Shown here piece by piece: positions 1 to 41,642 of a stretch of 41,642 bases of DNA; within the stretch, counting starts at the first letter, position 1; each line of letters begins with the position of its first letter. The DNA comes from a virus. Location of the stretch: the IMG/VR virus record IMGVR_UViG_3300033997_000031, positions 1 through 41,642 of that record, one strand, 5' to 3'. The translations under genes were made by a program, and so were the position numbers. A model generated the notes under the pieces. It made no database searches and was not told where the DNA came from. It worked only from the letters and a program-made list of their open reading frames with translations.

Positions 1-2
1 AG

Positions 3-86
3 CTGGCAAAACGTTTCCCTGCTTTTGACGGTTATGCTGTAGGCGCTTACGTGGTAGAGCATACTACTAAGGTGGTTTGCTTATGA
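3..86 (+). CDS. C-terminal fragment of an early protein cut by the window edge
   Basis: An open frame enters from the left edge and ends at TGA 84-86, giving 27 residues that include FPAFDGYAVGAYVVEH. It overlaps the next start codon (ATG at 83), the stop-start arrangement seen throughout this early cluster, which supports its being a real gene end. No start codon is visible inside the window. The short gene start at 41564 lies in the same frame if the two ends of the window are joined, so this may be the other half of that gene. Function is unknown. Confidence 0.45.
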   Translation: MAKRFPAFDGYAVGAYVVEHTTKVVCL

Positions 87-211
87 TTATCAAGTGTACT
101 TTTGAACAAGTTCCTGCGCTATGTGCCGGGTTAGTTAAGCAAGGCGTTGAGTTTACATGCGCTGAAACTTCAGGTGATTTCTGGTTAATAACCCTGACGG
201 GAGGTTACTGA
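83..211 (+). CDS. Small early protein, 42 aa
   Basis: ATG at 83 overlaps the preceding stop and has a purine-rich ribosome site (AAGGTGG, 69-75) upstream. The 42-residue product starts MIIKCTFEQVPAL and ends DFWLITLTGGY. Short proteins with this FEQ...VPAL...WLITL pattern are, from memory, common in early regions of enterobacterial phages, but no function is known to me. It is followed two bases later by the next gene, so it is part of a tight early operon. Confidence 0.6.
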   Translation: MIIKCTFEQVPALCAGLVKQGVEFTCAETSGDFWLITLTGGY

Positions 212-212
212 T

Positions 213-476
213 ATGACATTCGCACCAACCACTGCTTACATAGTGGACGTAACTACAGCGGATAAACTGGACCTGATGGATGCGCTTATTGTGGTGGAGG
301 GTATCCTAACCGTGTGTGATGGTGGCGTTTACCGTGAGGACAACGCTTACAGCCAAGTACACATCGAGGCACTAAATGCTGTGTGGTCGCTGGCGCAACT
401 GGATGAGTTGCTGTACAGCTTAAACTATGACGTGGTGGGTATTGTTGTGCAGGAGGGTGTACATAATGAAGCGTAA
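213..476 (+). CDS. Hypothetical early protein, 87 aa
   Basis: The gene begins two bases after the previous stop, with GGGAGG just upstream, and overlaps the next start by 11 bases. The product is acidic and fairly hydrophobic and has no motif I recognise. It contains no cysteine cluster, signal peptide or clear membrane span. Position in the early block suggests host take-over or an accessory role, which is inference only. Confidence 0.65.
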   Translation: MTFAPTTAYIVDVTTADKLDLMDALIVVEGILTVCDGGVYREDNAYSQVHIEALNAVWSLAQLDELLYSLNYDVVGIVVQEGVHNEA

Positions 477-732
477 TTACAACGGCGTTACTAAAGGTAA
501 GGTAATCCCGCTCACAGAAGTAAAGCCGGGTATGGTGTTCCGTATTGTATCGGATAAATTGCTGCCTGTTGTAGGTTGGTTGTTCTGGTGCAATGGTGAC
601 GGTGTATTCTGTACAGGTTGTGAGCGCACCAAGCAAATACCTAAGCAGGGTTGGTCTGGGCACGACCACTGGAAAGACGGTACACACAATATGGCGATGG
701 TTGTTAATAGCTTTGATAAGCGTGCTATCTAA
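466..732 (+). CDS. Hypothetical early protein, 88 aa
   Basis: I chose ATG 466 over an upstream in-frame ATG at 427, because AGGAGG (451-456) is correctly spaced from 466 and the longer version would lie deep in the preceding gene. The product is basic. It has two aromatic and cysteine-containing stretches (VGWLFWCNGDGVFCTGC) with three cysteines, but no complete zinc motif. Function not recognised. Confidence 0.65.
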   Translation: MKRNYNGVTKGKVIPLTEVKPGMVFRIVSDKLLPVVGWLFWCNGDGVFCTGCERTKQIPKQGWSGHDHWKDGTHNMAMVVNSFDKRAI

Positions 733-742
733 TACCAGTAAT

Positions 743-782
743 TAACTAGATGGCTTTCAAGTAGAGCCATCCGTGATAGTTA
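743..782 (+). other. Two-part hairpin between early genes (possible RNase III site)
   Basis: TAACTA-GATGGCT (743-755) can pair with AGCCATC (765-771) and, past a five-base bulge, TAGTTA (777-782). The 9-base loop and lack of a following T run argue against an intrinsic terminator. Bulged stems between early genes are typical RNase III processing sites in T7, so that is the working guess. Confidence 0.45.
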
Positions 783-804
783 CCCTATAGCAAAGGAGCT
801 GAGT

Positions 805-1197
805 ATGTCTTATGTAGAATCAACTGTGGATTTAGGTGCTGATGTTATCGACGTGCGGGATATCATTAGCCGAGTACAAGAGCTGCGCGATGAGCGGGAT
901 TCCGAGGAGGAATTGCCTGATGATGACGCTGCTGAATTGGATATGCTCGAAGGTATCCTGTCTGAGCTTGCTGGTTGTGGTGGCGATGAGGAATTTGACG
1001 GGGACTGGTATCCTGTGACGTTGGTATGTGCTGAGTACTTCCAAGAGTACGCCCAGAACCTAGCTGAAGAGTGCGGGTTAGTAGATACCAGTACAAGCTG
1101 GCCTATGAACTGCATCGACTGGGAACAAGCGGCACGTGAACTACAGATGGATTACAGCCACATCCTAATCCATGGCTTTACGTACTGGTATCGTTGA
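805..1197 (+). CDS. Acidic early protein, 130 aa, possible antirestriction (ArdA-like) type
   Basis: AAGGAG at 792-797 sits correctly before ATG 805. The N-terminal half is extremely acidic (ESTVDLGADVIDVRDI, then repeated D/E runs). The C-terminal part carries DWYPVTLV, YFQEYAQNLAEECG, WPMNCIDWEQAARELQ and a final TYWYR. That C-terminal pattern is shared by a family of small phage and plasmid proteins often labelled antirestriction or ArdA-like. The acidic charge fits DNA mimicry, but ArdA activity is only an inference. It could equally be an unrelated acidic host-interaction protein. Confidence 0.6.
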   Translation: MSYVESTVDLGADVIDVRDIISRVQELRDERDSEEELPDDDAAELDMLEGILSELAGCGGDEEFDGDWYPVTLVCAEYFQEYAQNLAEECGLVDTSTSWPMNCIDWEQAARELQMDYSHILIHGFTYWYR

Positions 1198-1225
1198 GGC
1201 TGCACTCGCAGCTAAGGATTAATGT

Positions 1226-1630
1226 GTGTACCTGATGTATTACTCAGAAGATGGGCGGCTTATTACCGATGAGCCGCTACCTAGTACAGTTAAGGTTATG
1301 ACTCTACCGGAGTTCGTGCAACGTGCGAATTCCTTTGGGCGTTTGCGTGGTGCTAAGTACTGGGAACTGCACTGCGATGGACTGCGTATTATTAGTAAAC
1401 AGGAGATACCACTTATGCCCGCTCTATTGGATGCTGGTATGTACAACGTCGTAGCTCACGGTCGGTTCCGTGGTACAGGTCAACCACAGCAGATACCACG
1501 CCGTACATATATGCCCGCTGAGATGGCCGCACCTTACGGTATTGTAGAGTCAGACCTATATGAACTGGAACAGCGTGTAACTGCTATGTACCGCGACGAA
1601 ATCAAGGATGCACAAGATGAGAATCCATAA
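1226..1630 (+). CDS. Hypothetical early protein, 134 aa, GTG start
   Basis: The GTG at 1226 has AAGGA (1214-1218) at a normal distance. An in-frame ATG at 1235 would be too far from it, so GTG is preferred. The product starts with an aromatic stretch (YLMYYSEDG) and has a charged tail; no domain is recognised. Its 3' end overlaps the next small gene by 14 bases. Confidence 0.65.
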   Translation: MYLMYYSEDGRLITDEPLPSTVKVMTLPEFVQRANSFGRLRGAKYWELHCDGLRIISKQEIPLMPALLDAGMYNVVAHGRFRGTGQPQQIPRRTYMPAEMAAPYGIVESDLYELEQRVTAMYRDEIKDAQDENP

Positions 1631-1772
1631 AGAGGCAACGCAGCTTAGAATACAGCGCCGCAAGGAAGCTGAAGAGGCGTTAGAGCAACAGCGTCGAGAT
1701 GCAGCGCAGAAGCTCGGTATTAGTTACGAGTCCTATATGGCTCGTTTTATCCATCTGAAAGCAGGGTATTGA
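1617..1772 (+). CDS. Small basic helical protein, 51 aa
   Basis: ATG 1617 lies within the end of the previous gene and has AAGGA at 1604-1608. The product is mostly a charged helix rich in R, E, Q and A (QRRKEAEEALEQQRRDAAQK), probably a short coiled coil, ending FIHLKAGY. The start of the next gene is two bases past its stop. No function is recognised. Confidence 0.6.
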   Translation: MRIHKEATQLRIQRRKEAEEALEQQRRDAAQKLGISYESYMARFIHLKAGY

Positions 1773-1773
1773 T

Positions 1774-2364
1774 ATGACTGCACAAGTTAAATATAAACTC
1801 GGGGAACGTGAAGCTAACGGGCTGTGCCGTGTTATTGCTGTGGAGGCGTTCTCCAATGTATCGGTGGGGGATGTTGGTGGGTACATAGAGTCAGAGCAAA
1901 ATCTCGCACATACTGGTAATGCTTGGGTGTACGGGGATGCTCGGGTGTACGAGGATGCTCGGGTGTCCGGAAATGCTCAGGTGTACGGGGATGCTCGGGT
2001 GTCCGGAAATGCTCAGGTGTACGGGGATGCTCGGGTGTCCGGAAATGCTCAGGTGTCCGGAAATGCTCAGGTGTGCGGAAATGCTTGGGTGTACTGGGAT
2101 GCTCGGGTGTCCGGAAATGCTCGGGTGTACGGGGATGCTTGGGTGTCCTCTGTGTGTACTGTGACACCTAAAGTAATTACAGGGTTACTGTATACCCTCA
2201 CCATAACAGACAAACACCTACGGGCAGGGTGTCAAGTTCATACCTACCAAGAGTGGCGTACTAAAACAGAGCGCGAGGTACTAGCTATGGACGGTAAAGC
2301 TGCATTGGTGTTCTACAAGGAAACACTCATCCCACTAATGGATGTTCTTAAGTTGGGGGTTTAG
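1774..2364 (+). CDS. Hexapeptide-repeat beta-helix protein, 196 aa (YdcK-like)
   Basis: After an N-terminal lead (KYKLGEREANGLCRVIAVEAF, then GGYIESEQNLAHTGNAWVY), residues 48-125 are thirteen six-residue repeats of the type GNA-x-V-x / GDARV-x. Such repeats fold as a left-handed parallel beta-helix. The C-terminal part (GLLYTLTITDKHLRAGCQVH, then EW) is the conserved tail of this phage family, which resembles E. coli YdcK at the N-terminus. Function is unknown; proposals include binding or scaffold roles. The DNA repeats are nearly exact, so copy number may change in frame. Confidence 0.75.
   Translation: MTAQVKYKLGEREANGLCRVIAVEAFSNVSVGDVGGYIESEQNLAHTGNAWVYGDARVYEDARVSGNAQVYGDARVSGNAQVYGDARVSGNAQVSGNAQVCGNAWVYWDARVSGNARVYGDAWVSSVCTVTPKVITGLLYTLTITDKHLRAGCQVHTYQEWRTKTEREVLAMDGKAALVFYKETLIPLMDVLKLGV
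1915..2148 (+). repeat. Tandem 18-bp coding repeats (13 units)
   Basis: Thirteen imperfect copies of an 18-bp unit (of the type GGGTGTACGGGGATGCTC) encode the hexapeptides of the beta-helix protein. Several adjacent pairs form a near-exact 36-bp higher-order unit that alternates ACGGGG and CCGGAA variants. As 18 is a multiple of three and the unit has no stop in several frames, long false reading frames appear on both strands here. Confidence 0.9.
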
Positions 2365-2365
2365 T

Positions 2366-2686
2366 ATGTTCGATTTACTGGATTTATACATATGGATAAC
2401 TTGGGTTTGTGTAGGGTGTGTTATTGGTATCTACTTTGGGTACTGGCTGCGCAAACGGGACGAGGCTGACGGTGTGGTGTCAGCCTTAAAGACTGCATTA
2501 GATGAACGGCGTGTACCCGAAGCATTACGTCAGCAGGTGCTGGTTAGTTCCCCTATCACACAAATACTAACGTTGGCACATTGGAAACTGAAGCATAGTT
2601 CACGACATACACAAACAGTTAAACCAGAGGATTACAAACGCTGCCGTAGTATAGCCTCTAGGATAATGCTTATTAAGCCGTTGTAG
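2366..2686 (+). CDS. Small membrane protein, 106 aa
   Basis: ATG 2366 directly follows the previous TAG. An in-frame ATG at 2342 inside the previous gene is less likely. Residues about 2-27 form a clear hydrophobic span (FDLLDLYIWITWVCVGCVIG, then IYFGYW) followed by a positive RKR stop-transfer. The remaining 75 residues are polar and basic and should face the cytoplasm. No catalytic motif is visible. An early inner-membrane protein of unknown role. Confidence 0.65.
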   Translation: MFDLLDLYIWITWVCVGCVIGIYFGYWLRKRDEADGVVSALKTALDERRVPEALRQQVLVSSPITQILTLAHWKLKHSSRHTQTVKPEDYKRCRSIASRIMLIKPL

Positions 2687-4007: not shown

Positions 4008-4008
4008 A

Positions 4009-4352: not shown

Positions 4353-5069
4353 ATGTTGCAGAGTACAATACACAGTGTGGACTTGCAGATGTTATCTGCA
4401 TATGAGTTCAATAAGTTACCCGCCCGAGTGCGTACAGAGTTATTGGCGAGTGGTAAGTTGGGTGTTGCGGTACGGCGGCGTAGTCGGCTGGTGAGTGGTG
4501 TGGGTACAAACGATGCTGGGTATTCTGTATCAGCTTACTTACAAGGCATCTTGGTTATGTGTCCTGCATATACTGCATGGCAACATATGCTAACACGTTG
4601 CTACTCCGGTAAGTACCATAAGCAATATCCTACATATATTGGATGTTCCGTGTGCGTTGAGTGGTTGTCATTTACAACCTTTAGGCTCTGGTGGTTGGCA
4701 AACCACGTCGACGGGTGGGAACTGGATAAGGATTTGTTGGTAGTTGGTAACATGGTGTATAGTCCACAGACCTGTGTATTTGTACCTAAATGGCTGAATA
4801 GTTTTACAACTAATAGTAAATCCATTAGAGGTGCTCTGCCAATAGGAGTCCGTTTACATTCACGTAGTAAGGTTAATCCCTACCACGCTCAGTGTAGTAA
4901 TGGTTCTGGTTCCCAGATACATCTGGGTTGTTACCCAACACCAGAAGCAGCACATGCCGCTTGGCTAAAGTATAAACTTGGTATGGTGGATTCTATGCAG
5001 ACACAACTCGAAGGTATCCTTCCCGGACTCACTGAGAAGGTGCGCACAAAGATTATGTCTTTGAGGTAG
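4353..5069 (+). CDS. HNH-type homing endonuclease with AP2-like C-terminal domain, 238 aa
   Basis: The middle of the protein shows the usual phage pattern of this group: a W-x-x-M-x-x-RCY helix (YTAWQHMLTRCYSG), then P-x-Y-x-G followed by V-x-EWLSF, then WELDKDLLVVGN, YSPQTCVFVP and a helix ending LNSF. The C-terminal region (PYHAQCSNGSGSQIHLGCYP, TPEAAHAAWLKYK) resembles the AP2/ERF-like DNA-binding unit found in phage HNH enzymes. Such genes are selfish and cut related genomes lacking them. It stands free between early and replication genes. AGGAG lies before ATG 4353. An intron association was considered but no interrupted gene is visible. Confidence 0.75.
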   Translation: MLQSTIHSVDLQMLSAYEFNKLPARVRTELLASGKLGVAVRRRSRLVSGVGTNDAGYSVSAYLQGILVMCPAYTAWQHMLTRCYSGKYHKQYPTYIGCSVCVEWLSFTTFRLWWLANHVDGWELDKDLLVVGNMVYSPQTCVFVPKWLNSFTTNSKSIRGALPIGVRLHSRSKVNPYHAQCSNGSGSQIHLGCYPTPEAAHAAWLKYKLGMVDSMQTQLEGILPGLTEKVRTKIMSLR

Positions 5070-5074: not shown

Positions 5075-5875
5075 ATGCTGCATACTGATGAATGGTTAAA
5101 GGATGCCAAGCGGCTACCAATAGGCCGTTCGGCTCGTGTGTATCATGGGTCGGAGTGTCGTCCTAATCTAGTTGTAAAGAATCTCCCAGACCGCTATACG
5201 GCGTATTGTCATAGATGTCATGAAGGTGGGGTTGTTATTAAGGATTATGTGCGGACAGCTTCTACATACAGTGCCGTACAGGATAACTCAATAACACCAC
5301 CGCATGACGCTGTACCATTATTCCTACGCGGGGTGCCTAATCCTAAAATTCCGTGGCAGAAGTTAGTCGCGTTCTTGCATAGTAAGTCTATGTCCGTGGA
5401 TTACTTAAAGGGTTACAACCCCAAGTACTCCGCTAGTGCAGAGAGATTACTACTTGATATGCCTGACCAGACAGTAGGGCGTTCCTTGCGCTCGGCGTCT
5501 ACAGCTAAATGGTTAACGTACCGTTCAGCCGTGTCTTACGTTAGAGCGAGCGCCTTAGCCGTTGAGGGTCGTAGGTTATTCGTCACAGAGGATTGTTTCT
5601 CTGCTATTAAAGCAGCGCATTCATTACCTCAGACGTTTGTACCTACGGCCCTCATGGGCACGGTGGCTTATAATGATTTCCTGAGATTAGCTTTAAGTTC
5701 TGCTGGTGTTGTGCTTTGTCTTGATAATGACAATGCAGGATTATCAGCAGCGCCTAAGATACAACGCGCACTCCGGCTACTAGATGTACCGTGTAAGACT
5801 GTGTACCCTAGTGCCGGAGCTGACCCTAAGAACGAACCGCTAGAGTGGTTTCGTAATGTAGTGGAGAGCGACTAA
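5075..5875 (+). CDS. DNA primase, 266 aa (separate from helicase)
   Basis: The protein makes RNA primers for the lagging strand. The N-terminus has a zinc-type cluster (H24, C28, then C45-H-R-C48), followed by a linker. The TOPRIM catalytic core has E172 in LFVTEDCFSA and the D217-N-D219-N-A-G motif in VLCLDNDNAG, which bind metal. In T7 the primase is fused to the helicase. Here the frame stops with TAA at 5873-5875 and the helicase starts at the very next base. That split is the phiKMV-like arrangement. Length fits the split family. Confidence 0.88.
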   Translation: MLHTDEWLKDAKRLPIGRSARVYHGSECRPNLVVKNLPDRYTAYCHRCHEGGVVIKDYVRTASTYSAVQDNSITPPHDAVPLFLRGVPNPKIPWQKLVAFLHSKSMSVDYLKGYNPKYSASAERLLLDMPDQTVGRSLRSASTAKWLTYRSAVSYVRASALAVEGRRLFVTEDCFSAIKAAHSLPQTFVPTALMGTVAYNDFLRLALSSAGVVLCLDNDNAGLSAAPKIQRALRLLDVPCKTVYPSAGADPKNEPLEWFRNVVESD

Positions 5876-7172: not shown

Positions 7173-8120
7173 ATGTACACCCTCGCTGAAATCCTAAAGG
7201 CTATCAACAGCCGCCAACACCCTGTCCAACTCGTTAAGCACTACGATGAAATATCTGATAGTGCCCGTAAGAACATGCAATGGCCTGCTATTGCAGAGGT
7301 TAAATACGATGGTGTGTACGCACTTATTGTAATGACTTCTGATAAGGGTGTGCAGTTCATTAGTCGCAGTGGTAAGCCTTTGTACTTTGAGCAGAATTAT
7401 CTACCTGAGCTGTTTGAGTGCAGTGCTTTCATGCAGGCACTGCGGGATGGTATGTGTTTTGTATCTGAGCTTATCAATCCAGAGCTCAGTCTCGAAGAGT
7501 TGTCCGGTATGGTCAATCCTAACCGTGTGGCTGCTTGGGATAACGCCAGTATGCTTACTGCTGACTTTGTGGTGCATGATACCGTGAGTGTTACGGACTT
7601 AATGCGTGGTAGCAGCCCTACATCATTTGCTGGGCGTGTGCATTGGTTCCCCTCTGTAGTACCTCAGCAGAACACCCCAACTCGCAAGTTAGTATCATCT
7701 GAGTTCGAGTGGCAGGAGTTCTGTGACTCTGTAATCAATACAGGGTCTGAGGGTGCTGTACTGAAACAGCTACATGCCCCTTGGATTGCTGGTCATAAGG
7801 GCTGGCATGTAACCAAGGAAGTACGTGGTGTGCATCTGGACTTGCGCTGTGTAGGCTGGACGCTTGGTAAAGGTAAGCGCAGTAATCAGATTGGTGCGCT
7901 GTACTTCGAGTACAACGGTAAGCTCTTTAGCGCTGACCTCGGTAAAGGTTGGACTGATGAGAAGCGCGATGCCCTTACTGCACGTGCTCAGAGTACCAAC
8001 GATGATGTCACTGGTGCTTTGTTTCACATAAAGGGCCTACAGATTTCATCTAAGGGTGTAGTGCGGCTTCCGAAGGTACAGGAAGAACGTATTGATAAGC
8101 ATGTAGCTGACGGAGAGTAA
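7173..8120 (+). CDS. ATP-dependent DNA ligase, 315 aa
   Basis: The nick-sealing enzyme of phage replication. The adenylated lysine is K44 in motif I (AEVKYDGVYA). Later nucleotidyltransferase motifs are FVSELIN (III), GSEGAVLKQ (IV) and GWHVTKEVRG (V). The C-terminal part should be the OB-fold domain. Size is normal for small phage ligases. It sits between helicase and polymerase, 7 bases after the former and 2 before the latter. Confidence 0.9.
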   Translation: MYTLAEILKAINSRQHPVQLVKHYDEISDSARKNMQWPAIAEVKYDGVYALIVMTSDKGVQFISRSGKPLYFEQNYLPELFECSAFMQALRDGMCFVSELINPELSLEELSGMVNPNRVAAWDNASMLTADFVVHDTVSVTDLMRGSSPTSFAGRVHWFPSVVPQQNTPTRKLVSSEFEWQEFCDSVINTGSEGAVLKQLHAPWIAGHKGWHVTKEVRGVHLDLRCVGWTLGKGKRSNQIGALYFEYNGKLFSADLGKGWTDEKRDALTARAQSTNDDVTGALFHIKGLQISSKGVVRLPKVQEERIDKHVADGE

Positions 8121-13943: not shown

Positions 13944-15380
13944 ATGCGTACAGGTACTTATGGTATTGAAGAACAGGGGCGCATTGTCCCTATCTCTGTA
14001 GAGCTAGTAGATGTACTAGGCTCTGATGTGAACATCGTTAACGCTGCCCGTGTATCCTTCGCTAAGGAAGTGCAAGAGGTAGGTGAGGCCGACCAGAAGC
14101 TAATGCGCTACCTGTGGAAGCACAAGCACTGGACTCCGTTTGCGCATACTTGTATTACTGTGCGTTGTAAAGCACCCATCTTCCTTGCACGACAACTGGT
14201 TAAACATCAGGTAGGTCTGTGCCTATCAGCAGACACAGAGATTACATTTGTTAAACATGCTAATGGTGCGTCCAACGGGACGTACAAGCAAACATTAGCA
14301 GATATTGCCAACATGTGGTTTGGTAAAGTTAAGTACCAAGGCGGGGCCAAAGGGAAGCGTAATATCACAGTACGTAACGTGCGTGTATACGACGAGACTA
14401 CTCGGCGCTTTGCTATTGGGCATATAAGCGATGTTATAGACAGCGGGATTAAGGATGTTTATCGCATAACCGATGAGTACGGTCATAGTATTAAGACGAC
14501 AGCCAACCACCAATTACTAACACAACGTGGTTGGGTAGCGTGCGCAGATATATTTCCGGGGGATATGTTAATTCGCAGTGATGTAGGTGCTACATTTGGC
14601 CAAACTCCATTAGCGCGCTGTGATTCGGAAGATGTAATTACACGACGTAACTACAGGGCTAGCGTACAGGCTGTGTCAAACTGTGCTAACTGTGGTGCAC
14701 AACACACAAAGGATAACTTGGAGGTAGACCACATCAGACCAGTACGTGATGGTGGTTCCCATGCATCCGATAACCTGCAAATGTTGTGTGTACCGTGTCA
14801 CAAGGCCAAGACGGCACAGGAGCTGGCTGATAAACGTTCGACTACACTACTACCTAAGTATACATCGGTTGTCTCGGTGGAGTTTATTGGAAAGGAGCAA
14901 TGCTACGATATAAGCATTCCCAAGTACCATAACTTCATAGGTAATGGGTTTGTAGTCCATAACTGTTGGAACGAAGAGTCCCGGCGCTATATAGATACTA
15001 AACCTGAGTACTACATTCCGGACTCATTGCACATTGCACCTACTAATGCAAAGCAAGGTGCAGGTACAGCATTTACAGAGGCGGAGTACAAAGCTAAGAT
15101 TGACCGCCTTATTCAAAACACTGATGAGTGCGATGATATGTACTTGAATAGTATCCGTGGTGGTATGGCCCCTGAAGAGGCGCGTATGTTCCTCCCGCTG
15201 AATACACATACCAACTGGGTATGGTCTGGTTCCTTGGTAGCATTCATGCGTATCATTGAACAGCGCTCGGATTCACATGCCCAAGGTGCCGCTCAAGAGT
15301 TCGCTAAACTACTACGTGCTGCTATCTCGAGTACTTACCCTATGGCTATTGCTGCATATAATGAGGTACATAATGGTTAA
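13944..15380 (+). CDS. thyX: Thymidylate synthase ThyX interrupted by an intein, 478 aa precursor
   Basis: Flavin-dependent ThyX converts dUMP to dTMP. The N-extein (1-92) ends RQLVKHQVGL and the C-extein (341-478) starts CWNEESRRYID. Joined, they recreate the ThyX substrate-binding signature (H/R-rich strand, then NE-x-S-x-RY), giving about 230 residues, a normal length. Other conserved parts are NAARVSFAKE, WTPFAHTCITVRCKAP near the N-terminus and LPLNTHTNWVWSGSLVAFM at the C-terminus. The enzyme should be active only after protein splicing. Upstream MazG-like and downstream DUF3310 genes overlap or adjoin. Confidence 0.9.
   Translation: MRTGTYGIEEQGRIVPISVELVDVLGSDVNIVNAARVSFAKEVQEVGEADQKLMRYLWKHKHWTPFAHTCITVRCKAPIFLARQLVKHQVGLCLSADTEITFVKHANGASNGTYKQTLADIANMWFGKVKYQGGAKGKRNITVRNVRVYDETTRRFAIGHISDVIDSGIKDVYRITDEYGHSIKTTANHQLLTQRGWVACADIFPGDMLIRSDVGATFGQTPLARCDSEDVITRRNYRASVQAVSNCANCGAQHTKDNLEVDHIRPVRDGGSHASDNLQMLCVPCHKAKTAQELADKRSTTLLPKYTSVVSVEFIGKEQCYDISIPKYHNFIGNGFVVHNCWNEESRRYIDTKPEYYIPDSLHIAPTNAKQGAGTAFTEAEYKAKIDRLIQNTDECDDMYLNSIRGGMAPEEARMFLPLNTHTNWVWSGSLVAFMRIIEQRSDSHAQGAAQEFAKLLRAAISSTYPMAIAAYNEVHNG
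14220..14963 (+). mobile_element. HNH-containing intein in ThyX, 248 aa
   Basis: Residues 93-340 of the precursor. The N-terminal splice block starts with Cys1 (CLSADTEITFV); block B is KTTANHQLLT (T-x-x-H). An HNH nuclease follows with CANCG, LEVDHIRPVRDGG, SDNLQMLCVPCHK. The C-terminal block is YHNFIGNGFVVHN followed by Cys+1 of the C-extein. All catalytic splicing residues (C1, TxxH, penultimate H, terminal N, C+1) are present, so it should splice. The HNH makes it a potential homing element. Confidence 0.9.
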
Positions 15381-18448: not shown

Positions 18449-18477
18449 GCCCGGCGTAAGCTGGGCTTTATTCGTTT
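18449..18477 (+). terminator. Intrinsic terminator after the RNA polymerase operon
   Basis: GCCCGGC-GTAA-GCTGGGC (18449-18466, 7 bp with one G-U pair) followed by TTTATTCGTTT. It separates the replication transcript from the virion block. Confidence 0.8.
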
Positions 18478-18501
18478 GTACTAACTAGTATTAACTTTTT
18501 A

Positions 18502-18525
18502 TAACGACTCACGTACTATGCATGA
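18502..18525 (+). promoter_or_regulatory. Putative phage RNA polymerase promoter, copy 1
   Basis: This 24-base segment matches 18705-18728 at 22 positions, with the identical core CACGTACTATGCATGA. The 5' part (ACGACTCAC) equals the recognition part of the T7 promoter. Both copies lie right after the RNA polymerase gene and its terminator, in a non-coding stretch before the virion genes, which is where such promoters are expected. No other copy was found by eye. Confidence 0.65.
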
Positions 18526-18704
18526 AATGCGTAGCCGCGCAGCGGAGATACTAGAGATTACTAGAAGTTATAGAGTATAGTAATAGTATCTATATAGATT
18601 ACTAGTATATAACTATAGATATAATAGATAACTCTATATGTACATTAGTATTACTATTAGATGTACCTAAGATAATCTATGCACTATATAAGTATAACCT
18701 AGTT
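18526..18704 (+). other. AT-rich non-coding stretch between the two putative promoters
   Basis: About 180 bases of short TATA, CTAG and ATAG-rich runs without a supported gene. It contains the small hairpin CCGC-GCA-GCGG near 18531 and many short inverted A/T words. Similar sequence occurs at about 39,557-39,690. It may ease strand opening for transcription or replication, but no origin motif is identifiable. Confidence 0.5.
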
Positions 18705-18728
18705 TAACGATGCACGTACTATGCATGA
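18705..18728 (+). promoter_or_regulatory. Putative phage RNA polymerase promoter, copy 2
   Basis: Second copy (22 of 24 bases identical to 18502-18525; differences only at positions 7 and 8). It lies about 90 bases upstream of the first gene of the virion block. Confidence 0.65.
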
Positions 18729-19003: not shown

Positions 19004-19409
19004 GATTCTATGTACTGATGTAGATGCAGTACGTACAGTGCAGTTCCTACATCAAGCTGTACAGGATACTATTGATTCTGGATTAGTACCTGAAATGGTA
19101 CAGGAGAACTACCAATGGTACTCAAATGTATTGGTGCAGGAATTAACAGGAGTAAACATCCTTGTGTACAGAAGTGAAGTTGACAGCACTCGTTACGCTG
19201 CTTGTGCTTTTACCTCTAATGACATTGACCATCATGTTCTAGGGTACGGCCTTACAGCACAGGTTACATTTAGTACGTGCAGTGTATGTCTCAAGAGCCT
19301 GATGTTGAACCTTAAGAACCTAGCGCATGAGTTGGGTATGTCTTGGTTTAAGCTACAGCACCGAGTAGGCAAGAACACTTACCGTACTAAGATATACAAC
19401 GTGAGGTGA
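18981..19409 (+). CDS. Hypothetical protein, 142 aa
   Basis: I chose ATG 18981. A GTG at 18948 would extend it by 11 residues but has no ribosome site. The start overlaps the previous gene. The product begins MKENLVSEILCTDVDAVRTV, has five cysteines including CSVCLKS, and ends with a basic stretch. Family not recognised. Genes in this place in phiKMV-like phages are small and of unknown role. Confidence 0.55.
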   Translation: MKENLVSEILCTDVDAVRTVQFLHQAVQDTIDSGLVPEMVQENYQWYSNVLVQELTGVNILVYRSEVDSTRYAACAFTSNDIDHHVLGYGLTAQVTFSTCSVCLKSLMLNLKNLAHELGMSWFKLQHRVGKNTYRTKIYNVR

Positions 19410-23934: not shown

Positions 23935-26307
23935 ATGGCGAATATTTTAGATGGTGTAGTACCGTCACTATTGCAGGGAGTATCCCAACAGATACCACGA
24001 GAGCGTCTACCGGGTCAGTTATCTGAGCAGGTTAATATGGTATCGGACTTGGTTACTGGTATCCGTAGACGCCCCGGTATTCAGTACATAGATAGTATTG
24101 GTAGTCTTGGTGCTATCAATCCGCTGTCTGTGCTATCACAGTACGTGGAGTTGGATACTACAGGTTGGCATGTATTCCTAGATGCAAAGCAAGGGAACAT
24201 CATTACCTTCAAAGAGGACTTCACAGTTAAGCAGGTAACACCTGTCCCGTATGTAATAACTTCTGATGGTAAGGCCGACAAACTACGTATGGTAGTAGAT
24301 GCTGGCTTTGTGTGGGTATTGAATACCGAGAAGAAACCTGTACTCATTAACCAAGACACTGGCAAACAAGACCCCGGTAGAACTGGTTTTGTATGGGTAA
24401 AGACTGGGGCATTCTCCAAACAATATGAAGTTACTATTAACGTAGTGCAGGCAGGTACACCTAGTACGTTCTCAAAGACGTACACTACACCTACTGGGCA
24501 GAATACAGGGGATGCTGCGCTCAGTACACCTGAGGGTGTTGCTACCGGGCTATTCGACCTACTCAATGGTGTAGATAAACCTGCATGGTTGACTGTGGTT
24601 AAGGAGGGGGCCTACCTCGCATTTACTATTGCAGCAGGGTACTCGGGGTGCACTGTCAGCACATCATCCGGGAACTCGTACTTGGGTACGTCCTCTGATA
24701 TGACTGTGCAGCTTATCACAGACTTACCACCAAACCTACCAGCAGGTACAGATGGCTTTGTGTGTGCAGTAGGTTCCAGCTCTAAAGCCTTGCAGTACTA
24801 TAAGTGGATTCTGTCCACCAAGACTTGGCAGGAGACTGGTGCCTACGGCTCGTACACAGCTATTGGTGACATGCCTCAGCGTTTTGATATATCTCCAACT
24901 GGTGTAGCTAACATAACAGCACCTGTCTTCGAGGGACGTGTATCTGGTGATGACGAGAATAATCCGTATCCGCAGTTTATAGGTAAGGTACTCACTGGTA
25001 TCAGTGCCTATCAAGGTAGACTTGTGCTCATGTCCGGGGCGTACTTGAACTTCTCTGCCAGTAATAAACCTACTCGCTTTATGCGTAGTACTGTTACGCA
25101 GGTTCTGAGTGAAGACCCTATTGAGCGCGGTAGTGGTAGTGCTACAGCGGCATCGTATACATATGCTGTACCGTACAACAGGGACTTGATTGCAATCAGT
25201 GCTACGCATCAGTCTGTAGTTCCTGCATCTAACTCCGGCATATCACCACAAAGCGCTGTTGTGCTGCTTAGTACAAAGCAGGCTATAGATACATTGGCCC
25301 AGCCTACTGTAGTAGGACGGTCTCTGATGTACTGCGCACCTATATCCTCTGATTACTTTGGTATAGGTGAACTGTTACCTAGTGACACTACATCATCACA
25401 GTACATTACTAATGAGCTGACTAACCACATCCCGCGTTATATGCGGGGTAGATGCCGTAGTATAGCTGCGTCCTCTGCTGCTAGTATTGCTTTGTTTACA
25501 TCCTCAGTTGATGTGCGGGAAGTACTGGTACATGAGTACCTATGGACTTCTACTGAGAAGTTACAGAGTGCTTGGCATAAGTGGGTGTCCCCATTGGATA
25601 TCCTGTCTGTACACTTCGCTAGGGATATTCTAGTACTAGCATTGCAGTCGGGTAACTCGTTGTTGCTGTGTACCCTAGATACGCGTGATAGCTCGTACTA
25701 CTCTAGTGGGGAATTAAAACCACTGTTGGATTTGTATAGCACAGCTAACGTTGTTGACGTTGGTGATTATAAAGCAGCAGCTCTACCTAATTGGTTAGTA
25801 GGCGTTGATGTTAATCTGATAGGTGCCAGCAGCACTGTGCAGGGCCTAGTAGGGGAACCTGTACAGATACTAGGTTTAGATGGTAGCACTTTGAAGCTAC
25901 ACCGCTCATATAGCGGTAGTACTGTGGTGTTGGGTTTCAAGTACAACTCAGTAATTGGTCTAACACCACCTGTGATGAAAGACCATAACGGTTATGCTAT
26001 ATCCTTGGATAAGACAACATTGCTGCGGTATGTCCCTACTGTACAGAATACAGGGGACTTCGATGTGACTATAAGCACACCTAAGACCGGGGAGCTTTTA
26101 GATGATGACGGGCATGTTCTTAAATGGGCGTCCCATGAATTAGGTCTGAAGCGTTCTCGTATAGCTGGACAGAGTACATTGATTATACCTTGTCGCACAT
26201 TGGCTAATGAGACGGAATGTACCTTCAGTACAGATAGTACAAGGGAGCTTAATGTTATAGGTGTGGAGTACACTATTAAGACTGTACGCAAGCGCCAGCG
26301 CATTTAA
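23935..26307 (+). CDS. Tail tubular protein B (nozzle), 790 aa (T7 gp12-like)
   Basis: The tail nozzle protein. The start (LDGVVPSLLQGVSQQIPRE, QLSEQVNMVSDLVTGIRRRP) is the conserved N-terminal signature of the T7 gp12 family. The rest is beta-rich. Length equals T7 gp12 closely (794). One base separates it from the previous gene. Confidence 0.93.
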   Translation: MANILDGVVPSLLQGVSQQIPRERLPGQLSEQVNMVSDLVTGIRRRPGIQYIDSIGSLGAINPLSVLSQYVELDTTGWHVFLDAKQGNIITFKEDFTVKQVTPVPYVITSDGKADKLRMVVDAGFVWVLNTEKKPVLINQDTGKQDPGRTGFVWVKTGAFSKQYEVTINVVQAGTPSTFSKTYTTPTGQNTGDAALSTPEGVATGLFDLLNGVDKPAWLTVVKEGAYLAFTIAAGYSGCTVSTSSGNSYLGTSSDMTVQLITDLPPNLPAGTDGFVCAVGSSSKALQYYKWILSTKTWQETGAYGSYTAIGDMPQRFDISPTGVANITAPVFEGRVSGDDENNPYPQFIGKVLTGISAYQGRLVLMSGAYLNFSASNKPTRFMRSTVTQVLSEDPIERGSGSATAASYTYAVPYNRDLIAISATHQSVVPASNSGISPQSAVVLLSTKQAIDTLAQPTVVGRSLMYCAPISSDYFGIGELLPSDTTSSQYITNELTNHIPRYMRGRCRSIAASSAASIALFTSSVDVREVLVHEYLWTSTEKLQSAWHKWVSPLDILSVHFARDILVLALQSGNSLLLCTLDTRDSSYYSSGELKPLLDLYSTANVVDVGDYKAAALPNWLVGVDVNLIGASSTVQGLVGEPVQILGLDGSTLKLHRSYSGSTVVLGFKYNSVIGLTPPVMKDHNGYAISLDKTTLLRYVPTVQNTGDFDVTISTPKTGELLDDDGHVLKWASHELGLKRSRIAGQSTLIIPCRTLANETECTFSTDSTRELNVIGVEYTIKTVRKRQRI

Positions 26308-32707: not shown

Positions 32708-34831
32708 ATGACTGTACAGTACAGCATTCAGGAAATGATATCTGATGGTACGTTGAGTACTATTGCGCTCGGCATACAGTACCTACAACGAAATGACATT
32801 TACATGCGTATCGCTGGGGAGGAGACTCCACAAAGTGGTGCACCTAATGGGTATACTTGGACATTTATTAATAACACTACACTGAAGATTACACCTATAG
32901 TGCCCAGTAGTGTAGAGGTGGTAATTTATCGGCGTACAGATATAAATGCGATGTATAACATATATAGCCAGAATGCCCAATTCGATGAGGCTACTATAGA
33001 TGAGAACAATGAACAACTACTATACATAGCACAAGAGTATTTAGAGCAAGGTATTCCAGGGGCTGGTGTTGAATCTCTGGAGTATATTAATACAGCAGCT
33101 GGTATAAACTACTACAGGTTTAAGTTGACAGATGGGTCTGTGACCCCGCCGTTCGGTGTGCCTGATGGTACTGATGTGTTGCGTACTGAATTAGTTAGTA
33201 CAGCAGGGGCTAGCCTTGTTGGTTCTGCATCATACACAGATGTGCGCTTGTATACAGGCTCCGCTACACGTATAAATGTGTATGGTAGGTCTAACATATT
33301 TGACGGTGGTTTTGGTAGTTTTGCCTTGGACGTGGCGGATACTGCGTCGCCAGATAATGACGGTACGATTCTGATAGATGCTCTTGGTCGCAGATGGAAG
33401 CGCATCGTCACTGATGGTAGATTTTCTGTTAAGTGGTTCGGAGCCAAAGGTGACACGGTGAATGATGACGCCCCGCCTACACAAAATGCCGTCGATTATG
33501 TAGGGTCGATTGGTGGCGGCGTTGTATACATGCCCAAAACTAACGGATGGTATAAATGGGGCTCTGGTGTTAAGTTGCCTAGCTACGTAACTCTGGAAGG
33601 GCCGAATGCAGACCGATTCCCGTTCAATAGTGGAGCTGCCGAGTCTTCGTGTGTAGAGGCTGCCTTCTCTGACCCGATGCAGTGGGTTATAGAGCCGGAC
33701 ACCAGAAAAGTTGGTGGCGAGCGCTTCGCCTACAATGAAATAATCACGCAATCCACACCTTTTAGCTTTACATATAACTGCCAAGTTAAAAACATTTTTA
33801 TCAAGAGTTCGGGCCAGATTCCATATGGCGGAGCCAGGATGCACGGCTGCCCCGGTTCTATCATCGATAACGTGTCTGTTCTGGGGACAGGGACTGGGGC
33901 GTTGATAAACTTCTCGTTCGGGGGAAATTATAAAATCCACACCCTCACCAACTATTATGGTGTGGTTTTGTGGTCGAATGCTAATGCCAATGACTGCGAA
34001 ATATATGCAACAAAACTGATTGAAACTGCACAACTTGTGCCTGTCGCATACCGCATGCCATTCATGGTTGCGCTAGAAGGCTCTACACTTGTTAATGATT
34101 ACAAGCTTCACACAAACGACCACGCAACTAGATCTTTTGGTTTGATAGTCGGTGCTCTTAGTGGCGAAACGTCTAGTGGTAATACTATCTCATATACAGG
34201 GGAGAAATTTAGCGGTGGTAGTTTCCAATTCTTCGGCTATGGAACAACTTTCACTAAATACTATGTGGAGGGGGCGGACGGTGAAATGACCTATGGGTTG
34301 GTCGGTTCCAACGCTAGATTGTCGGTCACGTCTTTGCACTGTTATTTAGAGGACACGGCTGGTGTGGTATTCGACCTCGGTATCGCTGTACAGTCAAACA
34401 TGAACCTAACCGGGCTTCTGAATGCCCCTGTTGGGTATGGGTACGGGCCTTATAACGACCAAACATCAATAGTGGTATTTGACCGTTTCTTTGGTGATGG
34501 ATGGCCTACGAATAGGCGTGTCACGTACACAAGCGGGTCTTCGGAAAAGTCGGCAACTCTTATTAATGGGTGGACAAACACTGGTGGTATGAAACGCCCA
34601 GCTGGGTTTATTTGGCGCGCGACAGACCACACGGTGTCCCTGTATGGTGAAATAACCGGAGGAAGCCCCGGTACTATCGCGCTCATTTTACCAGAGGGAT
34701 TTCGACCACTATATGCGTGTGACTTCGTAGTTGTCGGGGGCTCAGTGCGAGTGTTGGTTAGTGGGGAGGTGGTAGTAATAACTGGAAGCACCCTCGACAT
34801 CGGTCAAGTATCATTTGATGCGTATCTTTAA
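32708..34831 (+). CDS. Tailspike / tail fibre, T7-fibre anchor plus beta-helix receptor-binding part, 707 aa
   Basis: Residues 1 to about 125 are the T7 fibre N-terminal anchor (QYLQRNDIYMRIAGEE, NNTTLKITPIVPSSVEVVIY, RTDINAMYNIYS). A junction region (about 205-240: RRWKRIVTDGRFSVKWFGAK, GDTVNDD) is the standard entry into a pectate-lyase-like beta-helix. The remainder is beta-rich and looks like a capsular or LPS-binding spike, perhaps a depolymerase. Catalytic residues cannot be named. DNA from about 33.4 kb on differs strikingly in word use from the rest of the genome, so the tip appears imported. Confidence 0.88.
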   Translation: MTVQYSIQEMISDGTLSTIALGIQYLQRNDIYMRIAGEETPQSGAPNGYTWTFINNTTLKITPIVPSSVEVVIYRRTDINAMYNIYSQNAQFDEATIDENNEQLLYIAQEYLEQGIPGAGVESLEYINTAAGINYYRFKLTDGSVTPPFGVPDGTDVLRTELVSTAGASLVGSASYTDVRLYTGSATRINVYGRSNIFDGGFGSFALDVADTASPDNDGTILIDALGRRWKRIVTDGRFSVKWFGAKGDTVNDDAPPTQNAVDYVGSIGGGVVYMPKTNGWYKWGSGVKLPSYVTLEGPNADRFPFNSGAAESSCVEAAFSDPMQWVIEPDTRKVGGERFAYNEIITQSTPFSFTYNCQVKNIFIKSSGQIPYGGARMHGCPGSIIDNVSVLGTGTGALINFSFGGNYKIHTLTNYYGVVLWSNANANDCEIYATKLIETAQLVPVAYRMPFMVALEGSTLVNDYKLHTNDHATRSFGLIVGALSGETSSGNTISYTGEKFSGGSFQFFGYGTTFTKYYVEGADGEMTYGLVGSNARLSVTSLHCYLEDTAGVVFDLGIAVQSNMNLTGLLNAPVGYGYGPYNDQTSIVVFDRFFGDGWPTNRRVTYTSGSSEKSATLINGWTNTGGMKRPAGFIWRATDHTVSLYGEITGGSPGTIALILPEGFRPLYACDFVVVGGSVRVLVSGEVVVITGSTLDIGQVSFDAYL

Positions 34832-38931: not shown

Positions 38932-38942
38932 ATACAAGTAGA

Positions 38943-38995
38943 GTGTTGGTATCTTGTGGGATTAGAATGTGAGATATACTAACACCTAAATTTTA
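38943..38995 (+). terminator. Hairpin terminator after the lysis genes
   Basis: GTGTTGGTAT (38943-38952) pairs with the end of the arm reading ATACTAACAC (38976-38985), and CT/AG continue it past a small bulge; TTTTATT follows at 38991. It ends the late transcript before a gene-poor region. Confidence 0.65.
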
Positions 38996-39556
38996 TTGTA
39001 CTCATGCGAGGGTGTTCCCTCCCTTGACCTCCTGAGACTTCCCCCATGACCACCCTCTCTGGGCTGCACCACGGCTCACAGGGTGGCCCTCTGTCTCTTG
39101 GGCTGCTCTCTGCCACCTCCGCCAGACCTCCTACAACGCCCTACAGCGCACCAGGGCTCTACAGCGCTATGGTAGCCTATGGATGGGCCTCTATTGCTCT
39201 CTGAGAGGGCTCTGGCTCGCTCTGGCTGCGTCCTATAGCGCTGGGTACTGATATCACTGTCTGGTCTGACCTAGGAGGGGAGAGGGCTGGCTCTGGTCTA
39301 TCCCACGATGTACCTAGAGATACCTAGTACTTATCTCAGTATCCCAGAGGTTCCCACGCCTTCCGGGCTACTATCATCACTGAGCGGGATTGGTATCAGT
39401 ACATAGAGTTCTCTGGGTAGCATAGGTATCTAGGGATGGCCCTGGTTGCTAGGGAGGCGTATGGGCGCTTACCTCTTTTCCTCTAACCACCTCGTTCCAT
39501 CACAGGGTTCCTAGTTACTTACCTCTTTTCCACTATGCTCTACAGTGGCTCGGGTA
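38996..39556 (+). other. Pyrimidine- and GC-rich region without genes
   Basis: About 560 bases with a strong excess of C and T on the + strand (runs such as CCTCCTGAGACTTCCCCC), richer in GC than the rest, and stop codons in all frames. AGCGC words recur (TACAGCGCA, TACAGCGCT, TATAGCGCT). A 14-base direct repeat CTTACCTCTTTTCC occurs at 39468-39481 and 39518-39531. Likely near the genome terminus, so packaging or terminal-repeat function is possible. Confidence 0.6.
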
Positions 39557-39866
39557 ATCCTCTGGTAGTTTCCTAGATATCTCTATGTGTATCTACAGTA
39601 CTCTATGATTACCTCTAGATAATCCTTATGCATCTCTATGTATTACTATATGTATCTATAGATATACCTAGAGCTATCTATAGAGTTCTCTAAGTACCTC
39701 TCTGTATCCCTCTTCCGCTCAACCTGCTTCGCAGTTCGCTTCAGAGACTAACTAAAGATTACGCAAGCTCCTTATGCTCACGCTTAGTGCTTACGCTTAC
39801 GCATAATACGTACATCAGTAAACAGAGGTCTTACTTGATTACTCTATGAAGATACTTAAGAACTAA
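39557..39866 (+). other. AT-rich then repeat-rich region without genes
   Basis: Bases 39557-39690 are AT-rich with CTAG, TATAG and CTCTATG words, similar to 18526-18704. Next come CTGC-TTC-GCAG (about 39730) and clustered short repeats (CTTAGTGCTTACGCTTACGC, about 39782). No supported gene. The short clustered repeats recall, without sequence similarity, the repeats beside T7 terminal redundancy. Confidence 0.45.
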
Positions 39867-39869
39867 GTG

Positions 39870-39899
39870 TTGACTCTGAGTAATAAACTATGTTCATAT
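39870..39899 (+). promoter_or_regulatory. Weak sigma70 promoter candidate
   Basis: TTGACT (39870-39875) is a good -35, but the best -10 at 17-18 bases (TTCATA or TCATAT) is poor. It would serve the small gene at 40049. Confidence 0.3.
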
Positions 39900-40048
39900 A
39901 GCTACATCGAGAGGCAAGCAACCTTATGGTTCTACCTCGAAGGCTCTAAGGTTCTAACGGTAAGAAGTAAACTGCTGGTCAAACTCTCTACCGGACTTAG
40001 ACAACTAGAAGTAATAAGATACAAGGTTCTATTAGCCGAGGTGATAGA

Positions 40049-40237
40049 ATGGTTAAGGTTATTTACTCTAGTGTGTACAATGAATACAAGGTCTTAGTAT
40101 CTGGTTCAACGTACTACACCGATGATAAGCAGGATGCCTTGAACACCTGCCGCCTTATGGCTAAAGAACAAGGCATTGATAGCGATGTGGTTGTATCTGT
40201 AAAGAAAGCAACTACTAAGCAAGAAGAAAACTGGTAG
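40049..40237 (+). CDS. Small early protein, 62 aa
   Basis: GAGGTGAT lies just before ATG 40049. The product (MVKVIYSSVYNEYKVLVSGS, then TYYTDDKQDALNTCR) matches a small protein pattern with a conserved YYTDDKQDA motif that I associate with early genes of T7-like phages. Function unknown. Its 3' end abuts the strong early promoter. Confidence 0.7.
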   Translation: MVKVIYSSVYNEYKVLVSGSTYYTDDKQDALNTCRLMAKEQGIDSDVVVSVKKATTKQEENW

Positions 40238-40267
40238 TTGACAAGCGTTAAGAGTTAGCACTAAGAT
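40238..40267 (+). promoter_or_regulatory. Early sigma70 promoter
   Basis: Perfect -35 TTGACA (40238-40243), 18-base spacer, -10 TAAGAT (40262-40267, four of six consensus bases). It points to the early genes and directly precedes a structured untranslated leader. This is the best host promoter in the window. Confidence 0.7.
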
Positions 40268-40375
40268 ACAGCCAAGCAATACAACGTAGTAAAGCGCCTC
40301 TGGTTCTGATTCCCTTATAGGGTTAAGACGACACCATACAAAGCGCTAACGAATACCAAAGGCAATATGCCGAAC

Positions 40376-40420
40376 GTTCTTTAACAATTTGGTAAGTCCT
40401 TGTCCCTTGTACTCTAAGGG
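40376..40420 (+). promoter_or_regulatory. rRNA-type boxA with downstream hairpin (nut-like antitermination site)
   Basis: GTTCTTTAACAATTTGG (40376-40392) nearly equals the boxA of enterobacterial rRNA operons (TGCTCTTTAACA). A hairpin CCCTT-GTACTCT-AAGGG follows at 40404-40420, like boxB of a lambda nut site. It lies in the early leader, so NusB/NusE-type factors may protect early RNA from Rho. The next leader bases include the 12-base palindrome TACAGCGCTGTA (40429-40440) and a GNRA hairpin ATGTC-GGGA-GACAT (40474-40487). Confidence 0.65.
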
Positions 40421-40581
40421 TTAAGCTCTACAGCGCTGTAAAGGCTGTAGCTCTGGAAGGTGTAGCGGTTCCGATGTCGGGAGACATTACAAGACCGTGT
40501 GACAGACAGACAGGCTTAAACGATAACAGTACAACACAAGGCGCAATCTCTGTACTCGCACGACAAAGCGGTACAGGGTTT

Positions 40582-40612
40582 GTTTAAAGGTTCTAATGTA
40601 GAGCCTTTAAAC
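40582..40612 (+). other. Long hairpin in early leader (possible RNase III site)
   Basis: GTTTAAAGGTTCTA (40582-40595), loop ATG, TAGAGCCTTTAAAC (40599-40612): 14 bp with a single G-U pair. It ends just before the first leader gene. No T run follows. T7 early RNA is processed at comparable hairpins. Confidence 0.55.
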
Positions 40613-40635
40613 AATCCACAATGATTGAGGTTCTT

Positions 40636-40959
40636 ATGATAACTTTCAATGGTAAACGGTTTGCTAAGACTGTATCAGAATTCAACTCTACACTATTTGA
40701 TACAAGTGGTACTGCTAGTGGGTTCTACCGTGTAACCACTAAAGGGGTTATGTTGCTGGATTTACAAAAGCAACCTATGGCTTTCATACTACGGGATGCC
40801 GGTACGGCTTTCATAGTGTCAGCGTCTAAGCATAATGGGCGGACGTGGTATAGCTTCAGTACTACCGCTCCTACAGAACGGTATCTCGGTATTCGTGACA
40901 TGACATGCTCGGAAGTGCGGCACCTATGTCATAACACACTTTGTCAAGTATCAATGTAA
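40636..40959 (+). CDS. Small early protein, 107 aa
   Basis: I chose ATG 40636, which has GAGG (40626-40629) upstream; an in-frame ATG at 40621 has none. Product: MITFNGKRFAKTVSEFNSTL, then SGFYRVTTKGVMLLDLQKQP and NGRTWYSFST. Similar short proteins (FNGK..F ... LF...G...GYY/FYRV) occur, from memory, as first early genes of T7-like phages, where such proteins often block host defences; role here not established. Confidence 0.65.
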   Translation: MITFNGKRFAKTVSEFNSTLFDTSGTASGFYRVTTKGVMLLDLQKQPMAFILRDAGTAFIVSASKHNGRTWYSFSTTAPTERYLGIRDMTCSEVRHLCHNTLCQVSM

Positions 40960-40969
40960 GGAATACATC

Positions 40970-41467
40970 ATGCTGAATCATACTGAAGTTAAGTTAGTCA
41001 AGGTCGGTTCTCTGAATACCGCCTTCCGTAAGAACATGAATCAAAAGCTCGCCCTTACTATCAGCGCACTCTATCACGCTGTTGTGCATGGTAATGTAGC
41101 GTTTGCGGATGACTGGCAGCGTACAGATGCTGTGATGCTTGATGCTGTATTGCGCCCGCTGTTCCCTATGACATTCAGCAACAAAGATAAGAAGTACTCC
41201 TTCAGCGGTGTAAAGGCTGAAGAGGTGCAAGCGCATCTGAATGTCGAATTCCAGAAGGAAGAGTTTACATCCTTTGCTGAGAAGGTGCTGAAGTTCTACA
41301 GCGCCAATGAAAAGCAGACTAAGAAGCAAGAGCTGTCTGCATCCGACGTGGCGGGTGATTTAGAGAAGGCCGCTAAGGCTCTGGTTAAGAAGTTCCTTAG
41401 TAACGGTGTATCTCTGGATGCGCTGAAGACGGCGATTGTATTGGCCGAGAAGGGTGAGCTGAAATAA
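40970..41467 (+). CDS. Hypothetical early protein, 165 aa
   Basis: AAGGA before ATG 40970. The N-terminal half resembles a helical core (FRKNMNQKLALTISALYHAV, then RPLFPMTFSNKDKKYSFSG) and the C-terminal half is charged and helical (SDVAGDLEKAAKALVKKFLS). No known motif. It follows the 107-residue gene by 10 bases and is probably co-transcribed. Confidence 0.65.
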   Translation: MLNHTEVKLVKVGSLNTAFRKNMNQKLALTISALYHAVVHGNVAFADDWQRTDAVMLDAVLRPLFPMTFSNKDKKYSFSGVKAEEVQAHLNVEFQKEEFTSFAEKVLKFYSANEKQTKKQELSASDVAGDLEKAAKALVKKFLSNGVSLDALKTAIVLAEKGELK

Positions 41468-41490
41468 CAGTATCAGGGTAGCAGTGTTTG

Positions 41491-41520
41491 ACTAGGTGGT
41501 ATTCTATGAGTACCACCAGT
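41491..41520 (+). other. Hairpin between early genes
   Basis: GGTGGTA (41495-41501) pairs with TACCACC (41511-41517), extended by ACT/AGT (41491-41493, 41518-41520) with one bulged A. No T run follows. It may be another RNase III site. The surrounding 41468-41563 has no other clear feature. Confidence 0.4.
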
Positions 41521-41563
41521 GACAACCATTGTCTAACTCATAATGTTGGTAATTGGAGGTAGT

Positions 41564-41626
41564 ATGTACTTTATTAAGGTTCGTCATGTTGATGGCTTTG
41601 CATTTGAGGTGGGTGCCAGACTTTAG
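41564..41626 (+). pseudogene. Gene start interrupted by TAG, near the window end
   Basis: Strong ribosome site GGAGGT (41555-41560) before ATG 41564, but the frame (MYFIKVRHVDGFAFEVGARL) stops at TAG 41624-41626. If base 41642 is joined to base 1, the same frame resumes after a second TAG as the fragment ending at 86. An indel-type sequence error or a small gap at the junction, or a truly broken gene, could explain this. Confidence 0.4.
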
Positions 41627-41642
41627 AACAGGCGCGTATGGT

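Follow-up and report, generated by a model that had tools for sequence, protein, structure and literature searches.

Why does a viral genome of more than forty kilobases contain only a single GATC? The question is raised by IMG/VR virus record IMGVR_UViG_3300033997_000031, of which positions 1 to 41,642 were analysed (this whole stretch of 41,642 bases is called the window below). An earlier note, made from the letters alone, had placed one GATC at 34131-34134 where about 160 might be expected, and our computed count agrees with it exactly. Base composition predicts 160.1 sites, as estimated there, and Markov models of order 1 and order 2 predict 101.0 and 132.8. Neither overlooked sites nor a count approaching the Markov expectation were found (1 versus 101-133). 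With z = -14.9, GATC is the lowest among all 256 tetramers in the window, and the other low palindromes that the note suggested counting (TATA -5.9, AGCT -5.1, AATT -5.0) stay far behind it. We consider it probable that GATC was purged by long selection in Dam+ hosts, most likely via MutH.

The deficit does not arise from the encoded proteins. In 35 hand-picked open reading frames (ORFs) of the + strand (35,394 bases), codons were shuffled synonymously within genes 400 times, so that every protein and the codon use of each gene stayed the same. This gave 111.8±7.8 expected GATCs (minimum 93) and 1 observed. The automatic ORF set gave the same picture (1 versus 114 expected, z -14.1, 100 synonymous shuffles). 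Because about 112-114 sites are expected under these shuffles and one is present, GATC words were removed at the DNA level, and protein sequence and codon use are not the cause. All Markov and synonymous null models lie far above one site, and chance, protein or codon effects are thus rejected. An artefact of composition, codon use or assembly has practically no probability: GATC is the lowest of 256 tetramers, z stays near -14 when proteins and codon use are held constant, and independently deposited relatives are equally depleted.

What kind of genome is it? Two features define it for the present purpose.

1-41642, unstranded: T7-like podovirus record purged of GATC (from the GATC count and the alignment with Aeromonas phage PS)
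15797-18292, + strand: phage RNA polymerase, sharing 98.6% identity with the PS enzyme; basis of the tree of relatives

The nearest named phage is Aeromonas phage PS (MT259468), whose record gives A. salmonicida as host and is annotated as Autographiviridae. The window aligns with it over 34,421 bases, in pieces and circularly permuted, with 12.3% mismatches. Apart from the permutation both genomes are collinear and share the depletion (PS has 7 GATCs versus 136 expected), but they differ in the tail fibre region, in the thyX gene, which has no intein in PS, and in the number of GATCs (7 versus 1). The window carries no exact terminal repeat of 12-200 bases. It has a T7-type single-subunit RNA polymerase, and its replication, head and tail genes run in one direction, as befits a member of Autographiviridae near Beijerinckvirinae. 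This placement is based on homology and collinearity with PS and on the RNA polymerase tree; identity to the polymerases of the closest Acinetobacter phages is about 46% (46% to Petty). In PMC9145550, PS is described as an autographivirus that is unclassified and links Beijerinckvirinae with Slopekvirinae; the term GATC is absent from the main text of that paper. A tblastn search of the window at E 1e-3 detected no homologue of E. coli Dam or MutH. A Pfam scan of 20 window proteins, a part of its ORFs, revealed no Dam family, none of 10 window proteins scanned with PADLOC had a match, and a comparison of the window terminase with viral contigs returned one short relative only.

If hosts determine GATC content, then related phages should differ according to their hosts. 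We compiled a panel of 22 named Autographiviridae besides the window, to which two phages (PA28 and IME15) were added last, giving 24. They were picked for host spread, not at random. An RNA polymerase match was present in 2,542 records, and the choice was made among the 60 best and 60 evenly spaced ones; PS and phiAS7 are also included, as are PM16 and PM75, both from viral contigs. Observed/expected values refer to the order-2 model, and several records were read in part. Host types (Dam/MutH or other) are our own assignment. All 13 phages labelled with hosts that we take to be of Dam/MutH type, from eight host genera, are depleted (observed/expected 0-0.14), with the following numbers of GATCs.

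Aeromonas phages: PS 7, phiAS7 0
Proteus phages: PM16 1, PM75 9, RS1pmA 4
Vibrio phages: VH-5 0, BUCT233 0, 1.204.O 1
Pectobacterium phage Zenivior 3; Klebsiella phage TK-2018 8; Pasteurella phage PHB02 3
Cronobacter phage Dev-CD-23823 1 (the record names no host and the organism name was used instead); T7 6 (record PP384400, a recombinant T7 clone)

Among the 11 phages labelled with other hosts, nine (Acinetobacter 4, Pseudomonas 2, Stenotrophomonas, Brevundimonas, Synechococcus) are not depleted (0.74-1.04). In this chosen set the GATC values separate clearly into a low class (0-0.14) and a high class (0.74-1.04), and the labelled host matches the GATC class in 22 of 24 named phages. Zero GATCs were counted in the stretches read of three of the 22 panel phages and of IME15. 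The window is not extreme in its group, as phiAS7 has no site in 41,000 bases, VH-5 none in 38,738 and BUCT233 none in 42,421 bases read. Unnamed IMG/VR loci were kept apart from the panel counts. Two short relatives of the window (L002 and L003) have 0 GATCs versus 10 and 0 versus 19 expected, locus L023 has 10 versus 74 (0.14), and 15 further loci (L004-L008, L010-L012, L014, L016-L018, L020-L022) show observed/expected values of 0.64-0.80. As a practical hint, near-absence of GATC in a contig of a lytic phage without its own Dam points to a host of Dam/MutH type.

The same pattern might reflect common descent of the depleted phages. The GATC state was considered on a tree of 19 RNA polymerases, which does not include PA28 and IME15. 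At least six changes of state are needed, and the state agrees with the host label in 19 of 19 rows. The window, PS, Acibel007, Petty and VH-5 form one group (support 100/100), within which Vibrio phage VH-5 (0 GATCs in the stretch read) joins Acinetobacter phage Petty (123 GATCs) with support 94/87. Since the window and PS cluster with two GATC-retaining Acinetobacter phages and with a Vibrio phage that has no GATC in the stretch read, depletion tracks host more than lineage. Because the state changed six times or more and follows the host label over 19 rows, a lineage trait passed on unchanged within the phage family is rejected. Independent pairs of phages with differing hosts on well-supported branches point in the expected direction in five cases out of five.

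Which property of the host matters? Phages that encode their own Dam are informative here: if cutting of unmethylated GATC does the harm, phages able to methylate the word should escape it. Four of them were hand-chosen from 522 records with a Dam match; their Dam activity is predicted from homology. Values below come from synonymous shuffling of genes in the parts read (EK8 25,652 of 75,084 bases; Rexella 39,505 of 75,448; barba 32,270 of 80,556; henriette 34,880 of 107,218; N4 45,000 of 70,153). Phage N4 of E. coli (Schitoviridae), for which no Dam homologue was found within the 45 kb read, contains 1 GATC in its genes versus 115 expected. Two Schitoviridae with a Dam homologue, EK8 and Rexella, contain 108 versus 119 (ratio 0.91) and 190 versus 176 (ratio 1.08). 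Two of the four Dam-carrying phages are thus without clear depletion, and the other two are partly depleted. Because phages with a Dam homologue hold more GATC than N4, the comparison favours harm from a nuclease specific to unmethylated GATC. The pair of N4 and its Dam-carrying family members makes the mechanism directly testable in E. coli. A Shewanella phage with a GATC methyltransferase is also described in PMC8541194.

The Dam-carrying phages bear on two other explanations as well. If alternative hosts had methyl-dependent nucleases like DpnI, these might cut Dam-methylated GATC and so drive its loss; indeed, GATC is under-represented in 46 of 46 phages whose hosts encode matching type IIM enzymes (PMC6286503). 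Such nucleases predict the strongest avoidance in self-methylating phages, and the opposite is seen in the four examined. As these hold more GATC, methyl-dependent restriction is rejected as the main cause, and we regard any such origin of the depletion as very improbable. Selection for a high mutation rate, with GATC loss as an escape from mismatch repair, can draw on phiX174, in which restored GATCs (20 sites) cut the mutation rate eightfold; the same source states that GATC loss raises the phiX174 mutation rate and doubts this as the sole driver (PMC5014478). It makes no prediction of more GATC in Dam-carrying phages, and we find it quite unlikely.

We suggest the following course of events under selection in Dam+ hosts. 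A fast lytic phage without Dam would outpace the host Dam in replication, and GATCs of the phage would therefore be left unmethylated or half-methylated. A host nuclease for unmethylated GATC, most likely MutH of mismatch repair, would nick or break the phage DNA. Variants losing sites, mostly via synonymous change, would then be favoured. We infer MutH as the nuclease, Aeromonas as the host and undermethylation as the reason. The host is deduced from PS, and as to its Dam/MutH status, a MutH match was obtained only in E. coli among 14 control genomes. A scan of genome contigs with E. coli MutH showed no Aeromonas among the best 80 of 465 loci. Titles cited in PMC4997093 mention Dam of Aeromonas hydrophila, the species table of PMC8744996 includes A. 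hydrophila, and the latter paper describes P. aeruginosa as being without Dam methylation and without a MutH homologue.

The most serious competitor is type II restriction of the MboI/Sau3AI kind, acting on unmethylated GATC in present or alternative hosts. It would leave the same sequence signature, would be relieved by phage Dam in the same way and could act in hosts lacking MutH, for example those named for PA28 and IME15. That restriction is able to deplete GATC is evident from the 46 phages with type IIM hosts mentioned above (PMC6286503). Because depletion is wide and regular across eight host genera (13 of 13 phages of Dam/MutH-type hosts), a core chromosomal enzyme of mismatch repair, MutH, is favoured over patchy restriction systems. 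We leave restriction a small but real chance. From sequence alone, MutH and another nuclease of equal specificity are inseparable. A more far-reaching variant, in our view rather doubtful, is that Dam+ gammaproteobacteria share a GATC-directed anti-phage nuclease apart from the repair role of MutH, or that MutH attacks unmethylated phage DNA directly and independently of mismatches. If it were true, Dam and its partner would amount to a form of restriction-modification that is innate, spans the chromosome and is directed at fast lytic phages.

Several observations weigh against selection by MutH in Dam+ hosts. The phages PA28 and IME15 were counted because their labels might contradict it, and they do. 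Pseudomonas phage PA28 is depleted (13 GATCs versus 110, 0.12, in 35,078 of 42,910 bases), and so is Stenotrophomonas phage IME15 (0 versus 91 in 26,119 of 38,513 bases). The record of PA28 is marked UNVERIFIED, and the phage belongs to genus Novosibovirus, as does Proteus phage RS1pmA; IME15 belongs to Teseptimavirus, the genus of T7, that is, of E. coli phages. Both might be accounted for by mislabelling, by an additional host or by a host jump in the recent past. Because these two phages do not fit the class expected from their labels, our confidence in selection via MutH was lowered slightly, though it remains good, and the small chance given to restriction was raised slightly. Further, a sign test over the five tree pairs yields p = 0.0625, and that number of pairs cannot get below 0.05. 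Among the phages with their own Dam, Rheinheimera phage barba (34 versus 58, 0.59 of the synonymous expectation) and Vibrio phage henriette (92 versus 139, 0.66) are still partly depleted. Finally, for GATCs introduced into phiX174 no significant fitness cost was detected, under conditions without stress (PMC5014478).

How unusual, then, is the window? The earlier note had proposed selection by a GATC-directed nuclease or a Dam/MutH-type process and a Dam-type gammaproteobacterial host. This reading gains support from the nearest phage, which grows on Aeromonas, from the agreement of 22 of 24 host labels and from the richer GATC content of Dam-carrying phages. Its statement that avoidance is stronger than in T7 also holds: the T7 record has 6 GATCs in 39,938 bases and the window 1. 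The two are alike in other respects, since the window is a T7-like lytic podovirus in which no own Dam was found and GATC is the tetramer of lowest z, and T7 has 6 sites versus 140; they differ in the number of sites and in that the nearest relative of the window lives on Aeromonas, not on an enterobacterium. A second known case, phiX174, has a genome of single-stranded DNA. Like the window, it lost GATC as a phage of a Dam+ host, and it differs in being a 5.4 kb phage (PMC5014478). The titles of McClelland 1984 and of Deschavanne and Radman 1991, both cited in PMC5014478, already speak of GATC or Dam sites being selected against in enterobacteriophages. The same paper, citing Deschavanne and Radman 1991, adds that phage yields tend to drop in dam- mutH+ cells. 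Restriction-site avoidance in prokaryotic viruses, as treated in PMC6286503, is similar in that a palindromic site is depleted in viral genomes; it is tied to host restriction enzymes there and to hosts of Dam/MutH type here. Because the GATC effect is published and general, the novelty that the note implied is not supported, and the window offers a strong, though unexceptional, example of a long-known effect.

Where is the one site that is left? It lies in a gene for host recognition, and four of the GATCs in PS can be compared with their counterparts in the window.

34131-34134, unstranded: the only GATC, inside AGATCT, read in frame as AGA TCT (Arg-Ser, at codon 475) in the tail fibre/spike gene
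32708-34831, + strand: tail fibre or tail spike gene with the single GATC (PHROG tail fibre families)
5822-5825, + strand: counterpart of PS GATC 2891, GACC in the window, synonymous (Asp)
7884-7887, + strand: counterpart of PS GATC 5674, AATC in the window, Asp in PS and Asn in the window
19227-19230, + strand: counterpart of PS GATC 16411, GACC in the window, synonymous (Asp)
25194-25197, + strand: counterpart of PS GATC 22403, AATC in the window, synonymous (Ala GCG/GCA)

The GATC at 34131 is removable by a synonymous change. Around this site, in the variable part of the gene, the sequence cannot be aligned with PS, and a DNA search of phage records found no match for it. The gene product shows a weak, below cut-off Pfam match of pectate-lyase-like type. 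In PS, 3 of 7 GATCs lie in the gene positioned like the tail fibre gene of the window (chance of at least 3 of 7 = 0.007, post hoc). All four alignable PS sites are in aligned genes; the window differs at each, synonymously at three of the four. GATC sites might thus arrive recently through exchange in the host-recognition gene and be lost elsewhere.

Another word, GTAC, deviates in the opposite direction. With 499 sites it ranks first among the over-represented tetramers of the window. Synonymous shuffling predicts 290±12 sites within genes, and 437 are present (z +12.5). The surplus is seen in each of the three codon phases, and 307 of 421 aligned sites are conserved in PS. GTAC is also the top over-represented tetramer in PS, three Proteus phages, Petty, VH-5 and Zenivior; no clear excess is present in phiAS7, Dev-CD-23823, T7 or phage 55_1W. 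The excess is independent of host Dam status among the phages compared. A link between GATC loss and GTAC excess is rejected, because Petty keeps GATC and has 340 GTACs versus 217, whereas phiAS7 and T7 are depleted of GATC and lack the excess. We regard the GTAC excess as a separate by-product; among the papers listed in a literature search, none bore on its over-representation.

Some longer and other short words are also scarce. The window has no CTGCAG (17.4 expected) and, despite the GTAC excess, a single GGTACC (11.8 expected). CTGCAG is absent or rare in 10 of 11 other phages counted, with an excess only in Klebsiella phage TK-2018. The four Acinetobacter phages of the panel (L024, L025, L015, L009) have observed/expected values of 0.0 for CCGG and 0-0.09 for GGCC, and in Petty CGCG is at 0.0 too. 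In Brevundimonas phage Babayka (L037, 28,112 bases read) GTAC is absent (0 versus 50 expected, order 2), AATT is at 0.00 and GATC is normal.

The remaining features of the window are the following.

805-1197: early gene weakly similar to ArdA anti-restriction proteins (24.9 bits against a cut-off of 27; 4.5e-7 for PHROG anti-restriction)
1774-2364: ORF with an 18-base tandem repeat (1883-2188) encoding a beta-solenoid like that of YdcK
4353-5069: HNH endonuclease-like gene, almost entirely within a region unaligned with PS
13944-15380: thyX (thymidylate synthase) with an intein that bears an HNH nuclease domain, the intein being absent from thyX of PS
2682-2730, 18477-18525 and 18680-18728: 49-base repeated elements, two of them just 3' of the RNA polymerase gene

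ArdA proteins act on type I systems. The HNH endonuclease-like gene is located between the early genes and the homologue of the PS primase. The 49-base elements may hold phage promoters.

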